64,000 bases of DNA from Methyloceanibacter stevinii. Lineage in GTDB: Bacteria; Pseudomonadota; Alphaproteobacteria; Rhizobiales; Methyloligellaceae. The stretch is from NCBI RefSeq assembly GCF_001723355.1, contig NZ_LPWE01000013.1:248001-312000 (forward strand), written 5' to 3'. Under the pieces are notes generated by a model. That model was given only the letters and a program-made list of their open reading frames with translations. It did not search any database and was not told where the DNA came from. The position numbers and the translations under genes are program-made. Numbering within the stretch: position 1 is the stretch's first letter; each line of letters opens with the position of its first letter. This document shows, piece by piece, positions 1 through 15,500 of the stretch.

Positions 1-502
1 TCGGCATCACAATTGTTGCCGGCGTACTGGACAGACTCCAATGCGCGCCAACCGCATGAAGCGCTCCAAGTTGTGGTGCCCTCAACCCCTCCTCGGGAAG
101 GCCTGTGTCGTCTCTTGAGTGATAACTGAAACTGTCTTTCCAAGTTGCCGAGACGCTCTTTGTTCCCAGGGTCTGCTTGGCTCGTTCAATCTCGACATGG
201 CTCAGCCATTCGTACACGCCGGGGCAGGTGCCTCGAAGGATTCCGTCGATGCCCACTGGCAATGCGAGCTTCTTTCGCTCTGTGACGATTATGCGCTCTC
301 CGTTGCTGAGCAGCAGGCAGCGTTCTTTGACTCTCGGAGAGACCTGAATCTCATACTCCCGTTCAACGCACGCCTTTTCACCAGGCCGCAGTAGCTGAAC
401 GGCTTCTCCGATGTCGTACTTGATGGGTCCGAGTACGAGCTCGGGAAGGTCAATCTCAAGCCTGTCCAGCGCGAGGCGCATCTGCCCGGATCCGCTTACC
501 AT
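1..502 (-). CDS. Superfamily 2 helicase, N-terminal part only (runs off the window edge)
   Basis: An open frame of 167 codons runs leftward from an ATG at 502 and leaves the window without a stop. The last visible residues read LRAPQLGALHAV, then AHW, then PATIVMP. This is the Q-motif-like and pre-Walker A part of DEAD/ResIII-type superfamily 2 helicases, which normally continue PTGTGKT; the single base left at position 1 (A on this strand) fits a Thr codon next. The first 130 or so residues are an unrecognised N-terminal region. The ATG overlaps the stop of the DUF2235 gene (ATGGTAA, 502-496), so the two are probably translationally coupled. Helicases starting like this are often found in phage-defence loci. 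Helicase identity is inferred from a short stretch, since Walker A and all later motifs lie outside. Confidence 0.72.
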   Translation of the reverse strand, partial: MVSGSGQMRLALDRLEIDLPELVLGPIKYDIGEAVQLLRPGEKACVEREYEIQVSPRVKERCLLLSNGERIIVTERKKLALPVGIDGILRGTCPGVYEWLSHVEIERAKQTLGTKSVSATWKDSFSYHSRDDTGLPEEGLRAPQLGALHAVGAHWSLSSTPATIVMP

Positions 503-1545
503 GGTTCGGTCCTGTGTTTTTGCGGCAGGTTTTCCGGCATGTAGGTTCCGGCTTTGATGCGATCGAAGACCGATTGATGAATGAGCGAGTTCTCGGGGAT
601 CGAGCGCGACGCGCCACCGTAAATTTTGAGGCGGAGTTTCCATTTGTCTTCCGGATCCCGGTAGGTCCGCGGCAGATACTCGACAGGCCACCACCAACCG
701 GTCAACGAGTCATGTAGTCGGGGGCTGCCTATGGACGGTCGGCCGAGCCCCACTAGTCGCTGCAAACGAGCTTGATCGACCAGTAGATTGGGCATTGCCT
801 CCCTGATCATCCAGTCCAATGCGATATTTGATGGACCGGACTCACTCTCAGAATGTCCCCCGCCGACGTCTGAATGGGTGCCGGCAAACCAGACCTGCTT
901 GATGTCCTGGAAGCTTCGGCCTTTGCCCCATAGATGCTGACGAAAAAATGCTCTGCGCTCATCGATCGCAATTGCGTGGCGTACCGTCTTGACGATTGCG
1001 TTATTGGTCGTGAAGGGGAGGCTTACCGGGTCGTAAACCCAGCCCACTGACTTCACTGTGTCCCAAAGGCCCAGGAAGTGAATTGAACAGCGCCTAGAGA
1101 AGGCTTTGCGAAATCCGCGATAAATCTCCGGCCGCATCTCGTAACGAAACATCTTGGATGCATAGGGTACGAGGTTGTCGTTACCCGTGTTCAGCAATCC
1201 GCACTTTGCGATTAGGGCCGCAATACCCCTGGCAGTGTATGCCCCGCGACTAAATCCAAAAATGAAGACCCTGTCGCCATCCTCAAAGTAGTCCATGAGG
1301 TAAGTGTATGCTTCTTCGATATCGCGGAGAATTCCAGCGCCAAAGGCGAGGCCCGCTGCTTTGCTCAGGCGCTTGCCCAATCGCGACCAGACCGTCGGAG
1401 CGCTGAGGGTTCCCACGCCTGGATCATAGTACGTGGCTTGCCCATCGCTCTTTTCCAGGACCGAGTAGAGCTTGAGCACGTTGGTGCTGCGCTCTCCGTA
1501 TTCGTTGCTCGTGCCGTCGCAACAAAGAACAATGTTTTTCGCCAC
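496..1545 (-). CDS. DUF2235 alpha/beta hydrolase (T6SS phospholipase-effector-like fold)
   Basis: A 349-residue protein if begun at the GTG at 1545, which gives the usual family opening M-A-K-N-I-V-L-C-C-D-G-T-S-N. An AGGAGG lies 13 bases upstream. The frame is open to 1638, but that start would leave only four bases to the divergent gene. The nucleophile elbow GFSRG (Ser99) is present, and GTHSDVGGGH follows further on, so the Ser-Asp-His hydrolase core looks complete. DUF2235 includes the Tle1 phospholipases of type VI secretion, but no T6SS gene is nearby. It sits head-to-tail with a helicase and divergent from a nuclease-like gene, so a role as a membrane- or lipid-attacking effector of a defence system is possible. 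That role is inference; family membership is fairly sure. Confidence 0.85.
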   Translation of the reverse strand: MAKNIVLCCDGTSNEYGERSTNVLKLYSVLEKSDGQATYYDPGVGTLSAPTVWSRLGKRLSKAAGLAFGAGILRDIEEAYTYLMDYFEDGDRVFIFGFSRGAYTARGIAALIAKCGLLNTGNDNLVPYASKMFRYEMRPEIYRGFRKAFSRRCSIHFLGLWDTVKSVGWVYDPVSLPFTTNNAIVKTVRHAIAIDERRAFFRQHLWGKGRSFQDIKQVWFAGTHSDVGGGHSESESGPSNIALDWMIREAMPNLLVDQARLQRLVGLGRPSIGSPRLHDSLTGWWWPVEYLPRTYRDPEDKWKLRLKIYGGASRSIPENSLIHQSVFDRIKAGTYMPENLPQKHRTEPW

Positions 1546-1642
1546 GCCCCGCCGATCGCCTCCTGCCGGATGTCGCTGTCGCAACTTTTGCGGTATTATT
1601 ATCAGACTACACGCAAATTGATAACGGCCCGGGACCATTTCA

Positions 1643-3532
1643 ATGGCAATAACTTGCGAAGACTGCAGTCCCTATCTGTCTGTAACGTTGCTTCGTGGCT
1701 CTGGTGGTCAGACTCCCACGTCGGCTCAGCTGCGGACCGCGATGCGCAAGGTTCTCAAGTTGGCGGCAGCGGCACCCAATAGCCGTGTCTCTTCTCGAGA
1801 CTTTAAGATGCCCGCCGCTCCGAAAGGTCTGCCGGACGGATTGGATGTCTCCTGGTTTCACTATGAGGAGCGACGATCCCCATCCTGGTGCCCTGGCGCC
1901 AACCTTGAGGATCGCACCCACCAGGCGGTCTATATCTTCCGGAAAGCGGACCTGGTCGCAATTTGCTTTTCCGATCCTGCCGCCCGCAATACGGCTGTGC
2001 GCGCCATTCGCAGCGCGGAAGCCGCACCGCTTAATCGCCTCAAGCCACTGTCGGCGGCTGAAACTGAGGCCGCCTTTGTTGAGAGCGGCCTGAGAACATT
2101 GTGGCTCGGTGGCGCTCACCGGCGCACACCGATCAAAGCAGACTCGAAGGTACTATCCGGGCTCGAACTTGAGTCGGCTCTGGATCCCCTTGAGGATCAG
2201 AGCTTCTACTACAGCTCGGTGCGCAGTACCTCGAGCAACAAGGATCTGGCACCAGCCGGGCAGGCCGCAATCGTTGGGGCGAGCCCAAGACAAGCTCGGA
2301 TATGGCTTGGACCAACGAGATCGTGGGGCGAATTTGCCACCTGTGTCGAGAAGATCCTCGATCATGCTGCAGATAAAACCGGCGGGAAATTGCCGCAAAG
2401 GCCCCCCATCCCAATTCTGGCGCGGCCCGTTGACGGTCTGGATGGTGTCAAGGATCCCTACGACATGGCGGTGATTGTGCCAGAACTGAATCTTGCGGAG
2501 ATAGCCGCTGGCGACGAAGAGGCGCTGGCACTGCAGCAATTCTGCGATGCTGCGAGGTTCAAGGTAGCTGAGTCTACGCAGCCGCCGGGTTTTGAAGCGG
2601 AAGTGTTTTGGGACGACGAGAAACTGGGCCGGCTTGGCTACACGTTCGATGTCCGCGAGTCTGGTAGCGTAGCGCTAACTTCCGAGATACTGGAAAAGAT
2701 CGGAGACGCCGAGCATCAACAGGCCGTGCTCGATCTGTGCTGCAGGCCCGATTATCTCAGTATCTATTTTGACACAGGCCATACCTATGCTCGGGGGCAG
2801 TTCTATCGGACGAACTTTCGGGACTTTCCTTTCCCCGGTTGGGACTGGGTCAACATGTCGGAAGAAGGCATAGTGGTTCAGCGGGAAAAGCCACTCGACG
2901 ATAAGCGTTTCGCAGTGGAGGATGTTGGCAGGGCAGAGGATTTGTCGTTATTCGGGTTCGTGGCGCGTCATTGGCCCAATATCAAAGACAGGGGGCCGGC
3001 AACCGGTTGGCTCGTTTGTGATGACGGCTCGATGGAATCGGCCGATTTTATTCACTTTGACGACAGCCAGGAACCGCCCCAGCTAACCCTAATCCATGTG
3101 AAGGGTAGCCACTCAGATCGTGCCAATCGCGGTGTCTCGGTCGCGGACTACGAAGTTGTTGTCGGCCAGGCCGTCAAGAATTTACGCCACGTAGACCGGG
3201 GGCTCTTGTTGGAAAAACTCAAAGCCAATAGCACAGGGACGCTTAAGGATGCAGTGTGGCTAAACGGCGAACGGCAGGCGAACCGGGAAGGTGTACTGGC
3301 AGCGCTAGGTCAAGCTGGCAGCAACATGGAACGTCATGTTGTAGTCTTGCAGCCCAGGGTACGGCGCAGCGTTCATGACAAGATTCGCGAAAAGATATCA
3401 GCCGGCGCAGGTACCTCGGACGTTCGCCGGATGCAACAGCTCGATACGCTGCTGCTCGGTGCTCGCGCCGATTGTAGTTCGATTGGCGCTTCCTTCACCG
3501 CAATCGGCGAAGACGATACCCTGCCCGCCTAG
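1643..3532 (+). CDS. Uncharacterised 629-residue protein with a nuclease-like HVK motif near the C-terminus
   Basis: I do not recognise a named family for the whole protein. The N-terminal 130 residues contain a Cys pair (ITCEDC) and a FRKADLVAICF stretch; the middle is mixed alpha/beta. At residues 468-488 the pattern is SADFIHFDD followed by LTLIHVKG (Asp468, His485, Lys487), then GVSVADYEVVVGQAVKNLR. An acidic residue after a strand, followed by a hydrophobic strand ending in xVK, resembles a PD-(D/E)XK nuclease core with His in place of the usual acidic residue, as in some sporadically distributed defence-associated proteins. The start at 1643 has no clear ribosome site. The gene diverges from the DUF2235-helicase pair with about 97 bases between starts, enough for a shared promoter region. 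Nuclease function is a hypothesis. Confidence 0.7.
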   Translation: MAITCEDCSPYLSVTLLRGSGGQTPTSAQLRTAMRKVLKLAAAAPNSRVSSRDFKMPAAPKGLPDGLDVSWFHYEERRSPSWCPGANLEDRTHQAVYIFRKADLVAICFSDPAARNTAVRAIRSAEAAPLNRLKPLSAAETEAAFVESGLRTLWLGGAHRRTPIKADSKVLSGLELESALDPLEDQSFYYSSVRSTSSNKDLAPAGQAAIVGASPRQARIWLGPTRSWGEFATCVEKILDHAADKTGGKLPQRPPIPILARPVDGLDGVKDPYDMAVIVPELNLAEIAAGDEEALALQQFCDAARFKVAESTQPPGFEAEVFWDDEKLGRLGYTFDVRESGSVALTSEILEKIGDAEHQQAVLDLCCRPDYLSIYFDTGHTYARGQFYRTNFRDFPFPGWDWVNMSEEGIVVQREKPLDDKRFAVEDVGRAEDLSLFGFVARHWPNIKDRGPATGWLVCDDGSMESADFIHFDDSQEPPQLTLIHVKGSHSDRANRGVSVADYEVVVGQAVKNLRHVDRGLLLEKLKANSTGTLKDAVWLNGERQANREGVLAALGQAGSNMERHVVVLQPRVRRSVHDKIREKISAGAGTSDVRRMQQLDTLLLGARADCSSIGASFTAIGEDDTLPA

Positions 3533-6381: not shown

Positions 6382-6452
6382 TCGGGCCGAGGTCAATTGC
6401 ACAGCGAAAGTCCGGCACGGGTCGGAAACTGCCCTCGAGGCTACCTAAGGCC

Positions 6453-6529
6453 ATGTCCGCTTTGGGTCAGAAGCAGACATTGCGGCTGAGCGGCCGGCTT
6501 GTCCGCTATGTGCCAAAAGCGGACGTCAT
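6453..6529 (+). repeat. Palindromic-ended intergenic repeat (MSALGQKQTL-type)
   Basis: The left end ATGTCCGCTTTGG is the near-perfect inverse of the right end CCAAAAGCGGACGTCAT. If translated it would read MSALGQKQTL, a peptide that often contaminates gene predictions in Bradyrhizobium-like genomes because this short repeat is scattered between genes. It is non-coding here: no ribosome site, and the reading runs into unrelated sequence. A degraded copy in the same orientation lies at 3594-3670, so the pair brackets the AraC / Cys-rich / AraC block. Confidence 0.7.
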
Positions 6530-6567
6530 GGGACACTCGACAATTAGGCGTGGCGGGGTTGCTCAGC

Positions 6568-7716
6568 CTAAAGATAGAACGAGATTTGGTCCAAGGTCAG
6601 CAGCACTTGGAGCGCTGCCTTCTGCGTATATGCGTCGGCCGGCGCCGCACCGTGACCTACTGCGTGCCGCGTCGCATTGATTGCTGAATCACCGAGGGGA
6701 TCAAAGTCCTCATAGGTGTAGTTTCTCAGGTATACGAGAAACGGCCTTGGGAATAGCAGCGACGCTTCGTCCTGGTTCTTAGTGATGCCCTGCTCAATCG
6801 CGAAATCGAGGAGCTTTTCTATTTTGGCGCCGGACCCAACAGCGGCGATCCGTGCATCCCGCAGAACGCCCTCGATTTCCGTCAGCGCCGTCTTTATGCA
6901 GCCAACCGAGTCCCCACGCTCGAATGCATTGAGCGCTGATTCCAGCAGACTTCGGCGACTCGCGAAGTGTTCGTTGCGCCACCATCGGTCTGCCATGCAC
7001 TCGAAACGGGCGCCGTCAAATTTTTCAACTAGCGCCCTTTCCTGAGCCTCGATCTCGAAATCGTGCTTGAACGCGTTCAACAGTGCTTCGAAATCACCAC
7101 CAATCAGCTCCACAAATGGGAACCATCCAGCACGAACCAACCGCGGGAAGAATGCAGAATCATCGAACGTCTCGTAGATGTTTTGGAATCGCAACAAGCG
7201 ATACAGGTGGGCGACCGCACACTCCACCTCCTCCTGGTTGGTCTCTCGCTGGTCATCAAGATCGAAGACAATCGCGAACTTCCAACCGACCTTTAGGATC
7301 CAGGCGACCTTGTCTGTAGGTGCAATCGTGACACCCATTGGACTCACGTGAGTGATATCCGCTATGTCGGAGAGGAATACTTTTTGGCCTGCGCTGATGT
7401 TGCGTTTTGCACGCATTTTTATGCTAACGGCAACGCCATTTGGGTACAGTTCGGCCGCATGGTCCTCATGGACAACCAAGAGAAATCCGCACCAATGATC
7501 CGGCACCAGTTCGATGCCCAATGCACGCGCACGCCCAGCCAGGTGGTCGAGTAGTCCCTTCACATACGTGTAAAATTCGGGTTGATCGGACGTGAGCGCT
7601 GCATGAGTGAGAACCGCAACGGTCTCTCCGGCGCGCGCGTTCGATGCCGCGAACCCGCTGATTTTTACGTTGGTCAATTTGATCGGTTCTGGACTGTCAA
7701 CGGGGGGGATCTTCAT
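6568..7716 (-). CDS. Uncharacterised 382-residue protein with a possible C-terminal HEPN domain
   Basis: No named family is recognised. The last 35 residues contain RHAVGHG (Arg350, His355), an R-x4-H motif preceded by Asn and followed by a Y, an Ala-rich helix and LLTLDQISFYL. This layout is typical of HEPN-like domains (R-x4-6-H, often R-N/H-x-x-x-H-G), many of which are RNases or form toxin-antitoxin or abortive-infection proteins. The N-terminal 200 residues are mixed, with a hydrophobic WILKVGWKFAIVFDLD strand and an acidic DLDDQRE. The middle has conserved-looking aromatic pairs (DRWWRNEHF). The gene stands alone between a repeat and the island boundary at radC. A defence-type role is suggested by motif and place only. 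Confidence 0.6.
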   Translation of the reverse strand: MKIPPVDSPEPIKLTNVKISGFAASNARAGETVAVLTHAALTSDQPEFYTYVKGLLDHLAGRARALGIELVPDHWCGFLLVVHEDHAAELYPNGVAVSIKMRAKRNISAGQKVFLSDIADITHVSPMGVTIAPTDKVAWILKVGWKFAIVFDLDDQRETNQEEVECAVAHLYRLLRFQNIYETFDDSAFFPRLVRAGWFPFVELIGGDFEALLNAFKHDFEIEAQERALVEKFDGARFECMADRWWRNEHFASRRSLLESALNAFERGDSVGCIKTALTEIEGVLRDARIAAVGSGAKIEKLLDFAIEQGITKNQDEASLLFPRPFLVYLRNYTYEDFDPLGDSAINATRHAVGHGAAPADAYTQKAALQVLLTLDQISFYL

Positions 7717-8431: not shown

Positions 8432-9094
8432 TTAGTTGGTCATCTCGATATCGGCGCGGGAGGGCGTGGGGTCTCCGCTCGGGTGATTGTGGACGAGCAC
8501 GATGGCCGTAGCCGAGAGCTCCAGCGCCCGCTTCACCACCTCGCGCACATAGACGGGCGTGTGATCCACGGTGCCTTCCTGCTGGATTTCGTCGGCGATG
8601 ATCTGGTTGCGCTTGTCGAGAAAGAGAATGCGGAATTGCTCCTTCGCCTCGAAGCCCATGGCCGCACGGCAGTAATCCAGCACGCCTTGCCACGACGACA
8701 GCACCGGCCGCTCCAGGACTTCGCCGCGCATGAGCCGCAAGGCGGCGGCCCGCACGAGCTTGATCTCCGTCACGGCTGCGTCCCCGAGACCCGGCACTTC
8801 GAGCAACAGGTCCTCGGGCGCATTCATGGCCTCTGCGAAGGTGCCGAAACGGGCAAGGATGGCCTTGGCCAAGGGTTTCGTGTCCCGGCGGGGCATGGCC
8901 CGGAACAGGACCAGTTCCAGAAGCTCGTAGTCGGGGAGGGACTGCGCGCCGCCTTCGCGGAAACGCTTTCGCAGCCGTTCGCGATGACCGAGATAATGCG
9001 GCTTGGCGGCGTCTTGGAACCCAGGGCCTTCTGAGGCCGTTTGGTCGGCGGAGCCAGCCGTATCGTCAGAGCTCAGTTTTTCCTTAGAGCTCAT
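8432..9094 (-). pseudogene. radC: RadC/JAMM-domain protein, C-terminus missing
   Basis: 220 residues. The N-terminal UPF0758 helix-hairpin-helix part ([26 protein letters not shown], then [15 protein letters not shown]) is intact. The JAMM metal motif is reached: [20 protein letters not shown]. Normal RadC continues for about 30 more residues through a K-x-V...HDH-I/V-V segment to the end. Here the frame stops two codons after DIEMT (N, stop), and none of the three frames beyond resembles the lost segment, so this is not a simple frameshift. The accessory region begins exactly here, so an insertion probably cut the gene. RadC is generally not essential. The gene lies 43 bases downstream of map on the same strand. 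Confidence 0.8.
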
Positions 9095-12518: not shown

Positions 12519-15500
12519 CTAACTACACCCGCTCGTCGATCCGCACGTATCGCATTTCAGACACGTCCCGTTTCGGACGAGGGTAAAGTTGCCGCATTCT
12601 CCACATGCTTCCCCTTCATAACCCTTAACGCGCGCTTCGGCGACGAGCGCCGATGCACCGCGTTGGGCCAGGGCTTCGACAGCCAGCGCCACATGTTCGA
12701 CCGTGCTGGAAGACGTCGTGTCGAGCGACGCGGTCGTCGGACCGGCCGTTTCGGTAAGCGACTCTTCCTCATCGTCTTCGCTAAGAGCTTGCACCCGCGC
12801 CGTTGCGGATTGCGCATCGCCCGCCGCGGCGCGTTCGCCGAGCCGTCCCCGGGTGAAGCCGGGAGAGACGAGCAATTCGGGGCGCTGCTGGCCCTGGCCG
12901 GCATCGGCCGATCCAACGGTGGTGCTTCCAATTTCGTTAGGATCGACATGCGCCAGTTCGAAACGGCCGAGATAGGACACGGCCAGTTCACGGAACAGAT
13001 AGTCGAGAATGGACGTGGCGTTCTTGATGGCCTCGTTGCCGCGCACGGGCCTGCCGGTTCGAAACGGGTGAAGGTGAAGGCGTCGACGAACTCGTCAAGC
13101 GGCACGCCGTATTGCAGGCCGACCGACACCGCGATGGCGAAATTGTTCATCAGCGATCGGAAGGCGGCGCCTTCCTTATGCATGTCGATGAAAATCTCGC
13201 CCAGACGGCCGTCGTCGTATTCGCCGGTCCGCAGATAGACCTTGTGACCGCCGACCACGGCTTTCTGGGTATAGCCCTTGCGGCGATCCGGCAGACGCTC
13301 GCGATCCGCCGAAGCGCGTACACGCTCGATCACGCGCTCGACGATGCGCTCGGTGACGACTGTGGCGCGCTGGACTGCGGGCTGATCGGACGCGACCGCC
13401 GCCAGCACTTCGTCCTGCTCGTCCTCGTCCTCGGACAGAAGCTGGGCATTCAGCGGCTGCGAAAGCTTGGAGCCGTCGCGATACAGGGCGTTTGCTTTCA
13501 GGGCGAGACGCCAGGACAGGAGATAGGCCGCCTTGCAGTCCTCGACGGAGGCTCTCGTCGGCATGTTGATGGTCTTGGAGAGTGCGCCGGAGATGAACGG
13601 CTGCGCGGCCGCCATCATCCGGATGTGGCTTTCCACGGACAGGTACCGCGTGCCTTTGCGCCCGCAAGGCGAGGCACAGTCGAACACCGGCAAATGCGCG
13701 GGGTCGAGACCAGGCGCCCCTTCGAGAGTCATCGCACCGCAGGCATATTCGTTCGCGGCGTCGATGTCGGCCTTGGCGAAGCCGATTTCGGCCAGGAGGT
13801 CGAAATCGGGCAGATCGAGTTGCTCCGCGGTAAGGCCAAGCGTGCCGACGCAGAAGTCCTCCCCAAGGGTCCACTTGTTGAAGACGAACTTGATGTCGAA
13901 GGCGGATGAGACAGCCTTTTCGACCACGTCCAGCTTCTCAGGTGTGAAGCCTTTCTCCGCGAGGGCCTCGAGATTGACGCCGGGGGCGCCCTCGAGCGAA
14001 CCGCGGCCGACGGCATAGTCGATGATCTGCTTGATCTCGGCTTCGTCATAGCCAAGCGCTTCAAGCGCCTGAGGCACCATGCGGTTGATGATCTTGAAAT
14101 AGCCGCCGCCGGCGAGCTTCTTGAACTTCACCAAGGCGAAGTCCGGCTCGATGCCCGTCGTATCGCAGTCCATGACGAGCCCGATCGTGCCCGTGGGCGC
14201 GATAACGGTGGCTTGAGCGTTGCGGTAGCCATATTGGCGTCCAAGCTCCAGCGCCTGATCCCAGGCCCGCATGGCGTGGGTGAGGAGGCTCGGGTCGGGG
14301 CAGGCGGCATGGTCGAGCGGCACCGGCGGTGTCGACAGCTCCTCATAGCCATGCTGTTCGCCCCGTGACGCCCGCGCATGGTTGCGGATGACCCGCAGCA
14401 TGTGCTCGCGGTTCGCCTCGTAGCCGGGGAAGGCCCCGAGCTCGCGGGCCATCTCCGCGCTCGTGGCATAGGACACGCCCGTCATGATCGCGCTCAGCGC
14501 GCCGCCAATGGCCCGGCCTTCGTCGCTGTCATAGGGGATGCCGGAGGCCATCAGAAGGCCGCCAATATTGGCGTAACCCAGTCCCAGCGTCCGGTACTCA
14601 TAGGACAGCTGCGCGATCTGACGTGACGGGAACTGCGCCATGGTGACGGCGATTTCCAGCACGAGCGTCCACAGCCGGATGGCATGCTCGTAGCCTTCGA
14701 CGTCGAAGCTACCGTCCTTGGTGCGGAAGGCCATGAGGTTGAGCGAGGCCAGATTGCAGGCCGTGTCGTCGAGGAACATGTACTCCGAACACGGATTCGA
14801 GGCATTGATCGGGCCCGCGCTGGGGCAGGTGTGCCAGTCGTTGATGGTCGAATGGAACTGGATGCCCGGATCGGCGCAGGACCATGCGGCATAGCCAACC
14901 TGGTCCCAAAGCTCCCGCGCCTTCACCGTCTTCGCCACGCCGCCGGTCTTGCGCAGGATCAGATCCCAGTCGCCGTCCTCCTCGACGGCGGTCAGGAACT
15001 CGTCGGTGACGCGTACGGAGTTGTTCGAGTTTTGGCCCGCGACCGTGCGGTAGGCCTCCGAATCCCAATCCGTGTCGTAAGTGGGAATCTCGAGTGACGT
15101 GTAGCCCTGGCGTGCGAACTGAATGATGCGCCGGATCATGCTGTCCGGAACCTTTGCCTTGCGTGCAGCCTTGACCTCGCGCTTCAGTGCCGGGTTCTGC
15201 TTGGGATCGAAACAGCCGTCATTGTCGCTGTCGCAGTTGACGCAAGCCCGCAGCACCGCGTTCAGACGGTCCGATAGAACCTTGGAGCCGGTGACGAGCG
15301 CGGCAACCTTCTGCTCTTCGTGGACCTTCCAATTGATGTAGGACTCGATGTCCGGGTGATCCATGTCGACCACCACCATCTTGGCCGCCCGGCGCGTCGT
15401 ACCGCCGGACTTGATCGCGCCGGCGGCCCGGTCGCCGATCTTCAGGAAGCTCATCAGGCCGGAAGACTTGCCGCCGCCCGACAGGGGCTCGTTCTCGCCG

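Follow-up and report, generated by a model that had tools for sequence, protein, structure and literature searches.

A DUF2235 hydrolase gene and a motor-less helicase relative as a candidate two-gene anti-phage module in a radC island of Methyloceanibacter stevinii

We analysed a stretch of 64,000 nucleotides (hereafter the window; bases 248001-312000 of contig 13) from the 3.2 Mb genome of Methyloceanibacter stevinii. At its left end lie the first part of a superfamily 2 (SF2) helicase gene, a DUF2235 hydrolase gene and, divergent from the latter, an intact gene for a 629-residue protein that we call p629 (Table 1; negative positions lie left of base 1 of the window). All three are carried by a 20.8 kb island held within radC, both ends of which were mapped. 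In a comparison with two congeners, synteny is lost at contig positions 235622 and 256436 (window -12378 and 8436); these breakpoints adjoin one another in both congeners, where the island is absent. The 11-bp sequence TTGGTCATCTC, single in the relative, is found here twice, once per island end. These results confirm the island interrupting radC that the initial annotation had proposed. The GC content of the island is 56% versus 63% in the flanks, and no integrase was seen among its larger ORFs. The island also contains direct repeats, noncoding and each some 600 bp long (L002:3612-4207 and 12580-13176, approximately 90% identical and 8.97 kb apart), of which a third copy may sit near window 6400-6560, and, at its right end, a 382-aa ORF (window 6568-7716) with no match in Pfam or PADLOC.

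Table 1. Positions of the features discussed, in window coordinates.
Feature	Position	Strand	Remark
SF2 helicase, N-terminal part	1..502	-	Runs on left of the window; double frame disruption at about -950 to -975
DUF2235, Tle1-like alpha/beta hydrolase, 349 aa	496..1545	-	Lipase-type effector family; PF09994, E=1.2e-76
Divergent intergenic region DUF2235/p629, 97 bp	1546..1642		From gene coordinates
p629, 629 aa, homologous to the C-terminal half of the helicase but without motor	1643..3532	+	Intact ORF
p629 C-terminal nuclease-like domain, residues 425-629	2915..3529	+	Predicted alpha-beta-beta-beta-alpha-beta core; AF2 pLDDT 92.7
Motif CDDGxxExAD ... IHVKG ... YEVVxGQAxKN, p629 residues 456-509	3008..3169	+	Alignment
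Right 11-bp direct repeat TTGGTCATCTC	8436..8446		Island/radC junction
Left 11-bp direct repeat TTGGTCATCTC	-12388 to -12378		Other island end

The helicase begins at or near base 502, and the DUF2235 stop is overlapped by 7 bases (496-502), both as first annotated. When the helicase was followed beyond the window and compared with intact relatives, its frame was found to shift twice within about 40 nt, approximately 950-975 bases left of base 1, and the relatives' conserved segments ALYAE and ADWN fall in two different frames here. The break leaves two pieces. One, of 509 aa from base 502, comprises the entire SF2 motor; the other is an open frame of 595 aa that continues the homology. Apart from the shifts, each half is open and well conserved. 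The split helicase may be a young pseudogene or reflect a sequencing error. In the assembly as sequenced it is broken, and the intact players at this locus are DUF2235 and p629. Thus, of the three genes originally described as intact-looking, these two stand and the helicase does not. Its motor matches PADLOC models over the motor alone, HamB models being matched weakly. Elsewhere, helicases of this family are found mostly alone or with an AddAB-like pair, and some have relatives in viral contigs; neither DUF2235 nor p629 was found near the five best of these viral-contig relatives. Some 4-8 kb further left in the locus are an intact paralog of the same family, 974 aa long (L002:9221-12145, window about -6779 to -3855), and, after it, a Trypsin_2 gene that matches the PADLOC candidate PDC-S45. 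A 177-aa gene is also present on this side. Another genome (L025) encodes a helicase 74% identical to this paralog.

The DUF2235 protein belongs to the Tle1-like family, with a PF09994 profile score of 258 bits against a cut-off of 27. Its motifs GFSRG (S99) and GxHxD (G222, H224, D226) are invariant among 27 homologues. Since the relatives begin M-x-K-N-I-V-x-x-x-D-G, its start is most likely the GTG at 1545 and not the ATG at 1638. It is a minimal catalytic protein, without PAAR, MIX or RHS parts, and has no match in PADLOC. The family is best known from Tle1 effectors of type VI secretion (T6SS) and from polymorphic toxins (PMC3482391). In loci without p629, DUF2235 genes also occur in other company. 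In L081, 12 bp separate DUF2235 from a full-length helicase of the family described above, and in L082 it lies near such a helicase and a Septu-like AAA+HNH pair. This Septu-like ATPase and HNH pair is directly downstream of DUF2235 in L082, L083 and L085, in the last two with no helicase. On a Bradyrhizobium plasmid (L096:6046-9806), DUF2235 is followed by one gene for a caspase-family protein and another for a protein of 503 aa, which may make up a further conflict system with DUF2235. Given these other neighbours, DUF2235 may be a free-standing effector.

No Pfam or NCBIfam model matches p629. In a profile-profile comparison of 34 p629 members with 15 helicases, p629 residues 2-628 aligned with helicase positions 545-1109 (E=1.1e-22, probability 99.5), and reciprocal HMM searches agreed, recovering a middle block and a C-terminal block each way. 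Because the profile-profile and the two-way HMM matches concur, p629 is identified as the C-terminal half of the helicase (about 560 residues) without the motor; the two proteins are homologous, one lacking and the other carrying the motor. The idea of three separate components consequently gives way to that of two homologues and a hydrolase. Three members of this one family, the 974-aa paralog, the split helicase and p629, lie within about 11 kb. A further variant, in L060:8321-11806, places a p629 homologue in an open frame of 1161 aa, with some 530 additional N-terminal residues that have no Pfam match.

The HVK motif noticed at the outset is real and conserved across the p629 family. Residues D460, D461, G462, E465, A467, D468, H485, K487 and Q509 are invariant or nearly so, and the p629 and helicase families both retain the pattern D-G-x-x-E-x-A-D ... 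H-[VC]-K ... [YF]-E-x-x-x-[GS]-Q, which is invariant in the helicases. In the predicted structure (pLDDT 87.9 for the whole protein) the C-terminal domain consists of a helix, three strands, the third of which ends in HVK, and then a second helix and more strands, an arrangement that resembles PD-(D/E)xK enzymes. This topology and the invariant E465, D468, HxK and Q509 fit that superfamily, but HxK stands in place of its ExK, and all Foldseek matches of the domain to solved structures were non-significant (E>0.1; Avs3, FokI and LmuA being the best relevant ones). It is therefore from the motif and the topology that a nuclease is assigned, and nuclease activity of p629 is a prediction from the model. 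A solved-structure relative was thus rejected, there being none significant by sequence or by fold. The PADLOC candidate PDC-S71 has a weak and partial match to p629 (residues 454-517, E=2e-8).

A scan of 85,462 species identified 42 further p629 loci, in Alpha-, Gamma- and Epsilonproteobacteria, Actinobacteria, Chloroflexi and Verrucomicrobia. The protein is rare, as a class-wide profile search matched this genome alone. It was found neither in 50,697 phage records nor in viral contigs, and a phage-borne module was rejected on these grounds. After removal of duplicates and fragments, 40 distinct genome loci were retained, together with about a dozen plasmid loci; the DUF2235-p629 pair is often plasmid-borne. 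DUF2235 directly adjoins p629 in 15 of the 40 genome loci. The closest relatives, 19 in number, share at least 40% identity with the window copy. In two of them the sequence begins within p629, at the end of a contig; the other 17 have a readable upstream side, and 14 of these have DUF2235 directly adjacent. The exceptions have a helicase on the other side of p629 (L028) or an integrase upstream (L029, L041). Distant p629 relatives mostly lack DUF2235. The usual layout is a tandem with DUF2235 first and either a start/stop overlap (L018, L035, L038) or a gap of up to about 120 bp; the window locus, L027, L032 and L039 are divergent. The closest relative of the pair, L027, is 71% identical in DUF2235 and 54% in p629. 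Over 16 pairs, the distances among DUF2235 proteins correlate with those among p629 proteins (Pearson 0.82, Mantel p=1e-4); with ranks the coefficient falls to 0.51, as many of the distances are similar to one another. Of 150 genomes of the order, 34 contain DUF2235, which corresponds to about 0.25 copies per ~4 Mb; from this we estimate the chance of such an adjacency to be of the order of 1e-4.

Defence genes recur in the flanks of these loci. CD-NTase and/or SAVED genes are present in the flanks of 8 of the 40 genome loci and of 7 of the plasmid loci. They lie near the pair in L030, L031, L033, L034, L045, L056, L069 and L075-L078, whereas in L028, L049 and L070 the p629 that they accompany has other partners; L030, L031, L033, L034 and L045 are near-identical islands and do not count as independent. 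Other close neighbours are DarTG, ABC-3C, AbiEii, a Hachiman-like DUF1837+DEAD pair and Phd/VapC. The flanks, as read, are free of CBASS genes in about half of the close pairs (L017, L018, L019, L027, L032, L035, L038, L039). Instead of DUF2235, some p629 relatives adjoin a patatin (L043), PhoD (L049, L070) or Abi_C (L047); patatin and PhoD are likewise hydrolases of lipids or phosphoesters, so that the partner seems to have been exchanged within this kind. In four loci (L018, L019, L027, L032) an Exo_endo_phos-family protein adjoins the pair; those read have an apparent signal sequence, and some are fused to Endonuclease I or acid phosphatase.

No named system in the libraries that we searched corresponds to the pair. 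No full-length PADLOC model, named or candidate, covers p629 or the helicase C-terminal half. PDC-S71 has in common with p629 the C-terminal H-x-K domain, but that match spans only about 60 residues and the rest of p629 is unmatched; we found no discussion of PDC-S71 in the open-licence papers searched. SauUSI (a type IV restriction enzyme), Hachiman, Druantia and PbeA likewise combine an SF2 motor with nuclease activity, by fusion or by linkage, and the helicase motor matches their models; however, those models lack the C-terminal half in common with p629, which itself is motor-less. No HamA or Zor gene was identified in the island, which sets it apart from Hachiman and Zorya. DUF2235 relatives adjoin Septu-like pairs, as described above, whereas the window locus has no gene of the PtuA (ATPase) or PtuB (HNH) type. 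In the open-licence papers searched, DUF2235 is not linked to CBASS or to helicase-linked defence, an absence that is weak evidence, and it appears alongside helicases or conflict systems in a toxin survey only.

The initial annotation had proposed that helicase, lipase and nuclease form one undescribed three-gene defence system. The overlap of helicase and DUF2235 speaks for it, as does the presence, above chance, of family helicases near p629 (L028, L070) or near DUF2235 (L081, L082). Yet the helicase frame is broken here, the family usually keeps other company or none, and among the 40 genome and about a dozen plasmid p629 loci all three genes occur together only at this one. The broken frame and the lack of co-occurrence are both results that the initial annotation had itself named as counting against its proposal. 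We therefore reject the trio as a conserved unit and consider it very unlikely that the three genes work as one system; the proposal of an undescribed system stands for DUF2235 and p629 as a candidate. The helicase is a homologue of p629 and an optional partner; it is no unrelated third component. A different possibility is that the two genes are separate single-gene systems, often neighbours because defence islands are their common habitat. Both are indeed found apart, DUF2235 with Septu-like or caspase genes and distant p629 relatives alone or with other partners. The near-fixed direct adjacency in close relatives, the overlapping start/stop pairs and the correlated divergence argue against mere cohabitation, which we judge unlikely.

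The recurrent CD-NTase and HNH-SAVED genes, which directly adjoin the pair on either side in many loci, could mean that DUF2235 and p629 are extra effectors or regulators of these CBASS operons. The pair also resembles CBASS with phospholipase effectors, such as the CapV patatin, in placing a lipase-type effector in defence islands, often beside CBASS genes; the lipase of the window, however, belongs to another family (DUF2235) and its partner is helicase-derived. Moreover, the CBASS of these loci is already equipped with an HNH-SAVED effector, the close pairs listed above, about half of the total, lack CBASS genes in their flanks as read, and the island contains neither CD-NTase nor SAVED, so that the locus does not class as CBASS. 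A SAVED gene is absent from the entire genome by a search that did find its positive controls, and CBASS acting in trans was rejected on this ground. An accessory arm of CBASS accordingly seems to us quite improbable. Finally, DUF2235 could be a phospholipase of T6SS or polymorphic-toxin type with p629 as its immunity or adaptor protein, as its best-known relatives would suggest; it shares with the Tle1 effectors the catalytic family and the GxSxG and GxHxD motifs. It differs from them in lacking delivery domains and in keeping a nuclease-like protein as conserved partner. No signal sequence is visible in p629, which is a homologue of one half of a helicase. VipB (PF05943) is absent from the genome in a search with a positive control, in agreement with the initial view that T6SS does not account for this gene. 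The T6SS explanation was rejected for this reason, and a toxin role for the pair would be most surprising.

The reading that we prefer, at about even odds (roughly 0.5), is that DUF2235 and p629 are the working unit, a two-gene anti-phage module acting by abortive infection through a membrane lipase. Its observed basis is the gene content, the intact motifs, the homology of p629 to the helicase half, the conserved pairing and the defence-island location; from these we infer DNA sensing, nuclease activity, lipase activation, membrane damage, cell death and phage resistance. In such a module p629, or the helicase version, would bind phage-derived or aberrant DNA through the shared C-terminal half of about 560 residues, and then cut the DNA, change state, or both. 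This change would release or activate the cytoplasmic DUF2235 lipase, which would attack membrane phospholipids and so stop or kill the infected cell. The related helicases may sense DNA with their motor. Abortive infection by a lipase effector is of a known kind; judging from the gene comparisons, DUF2235 with p629 would be a new form within it, pending experiment.

More tentatively, the C-terminal-half family, with or without an SF2 motor, might control interchangeable membrane-attacking hydrolases (DUF2235, patatin, PhoD), and would then represent a new class of abortive infection in which nucleic-acid sensing is coupled directly to lipid hydrolysis with no second messenger. If the proposal is true, DUF2235, known mainly as a T6SS and polymorphic-toxin lipase, would gain an intracellular anti-phage role, and an unannotated family, with no Pfam or NCBIfam entry and no solved homologue, would be defined whose members are either motor-less or SF2 helicases. 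The recurrent CBASS neighbourhood would make the module testable in culturable Rhodobacterales and rhizobia.
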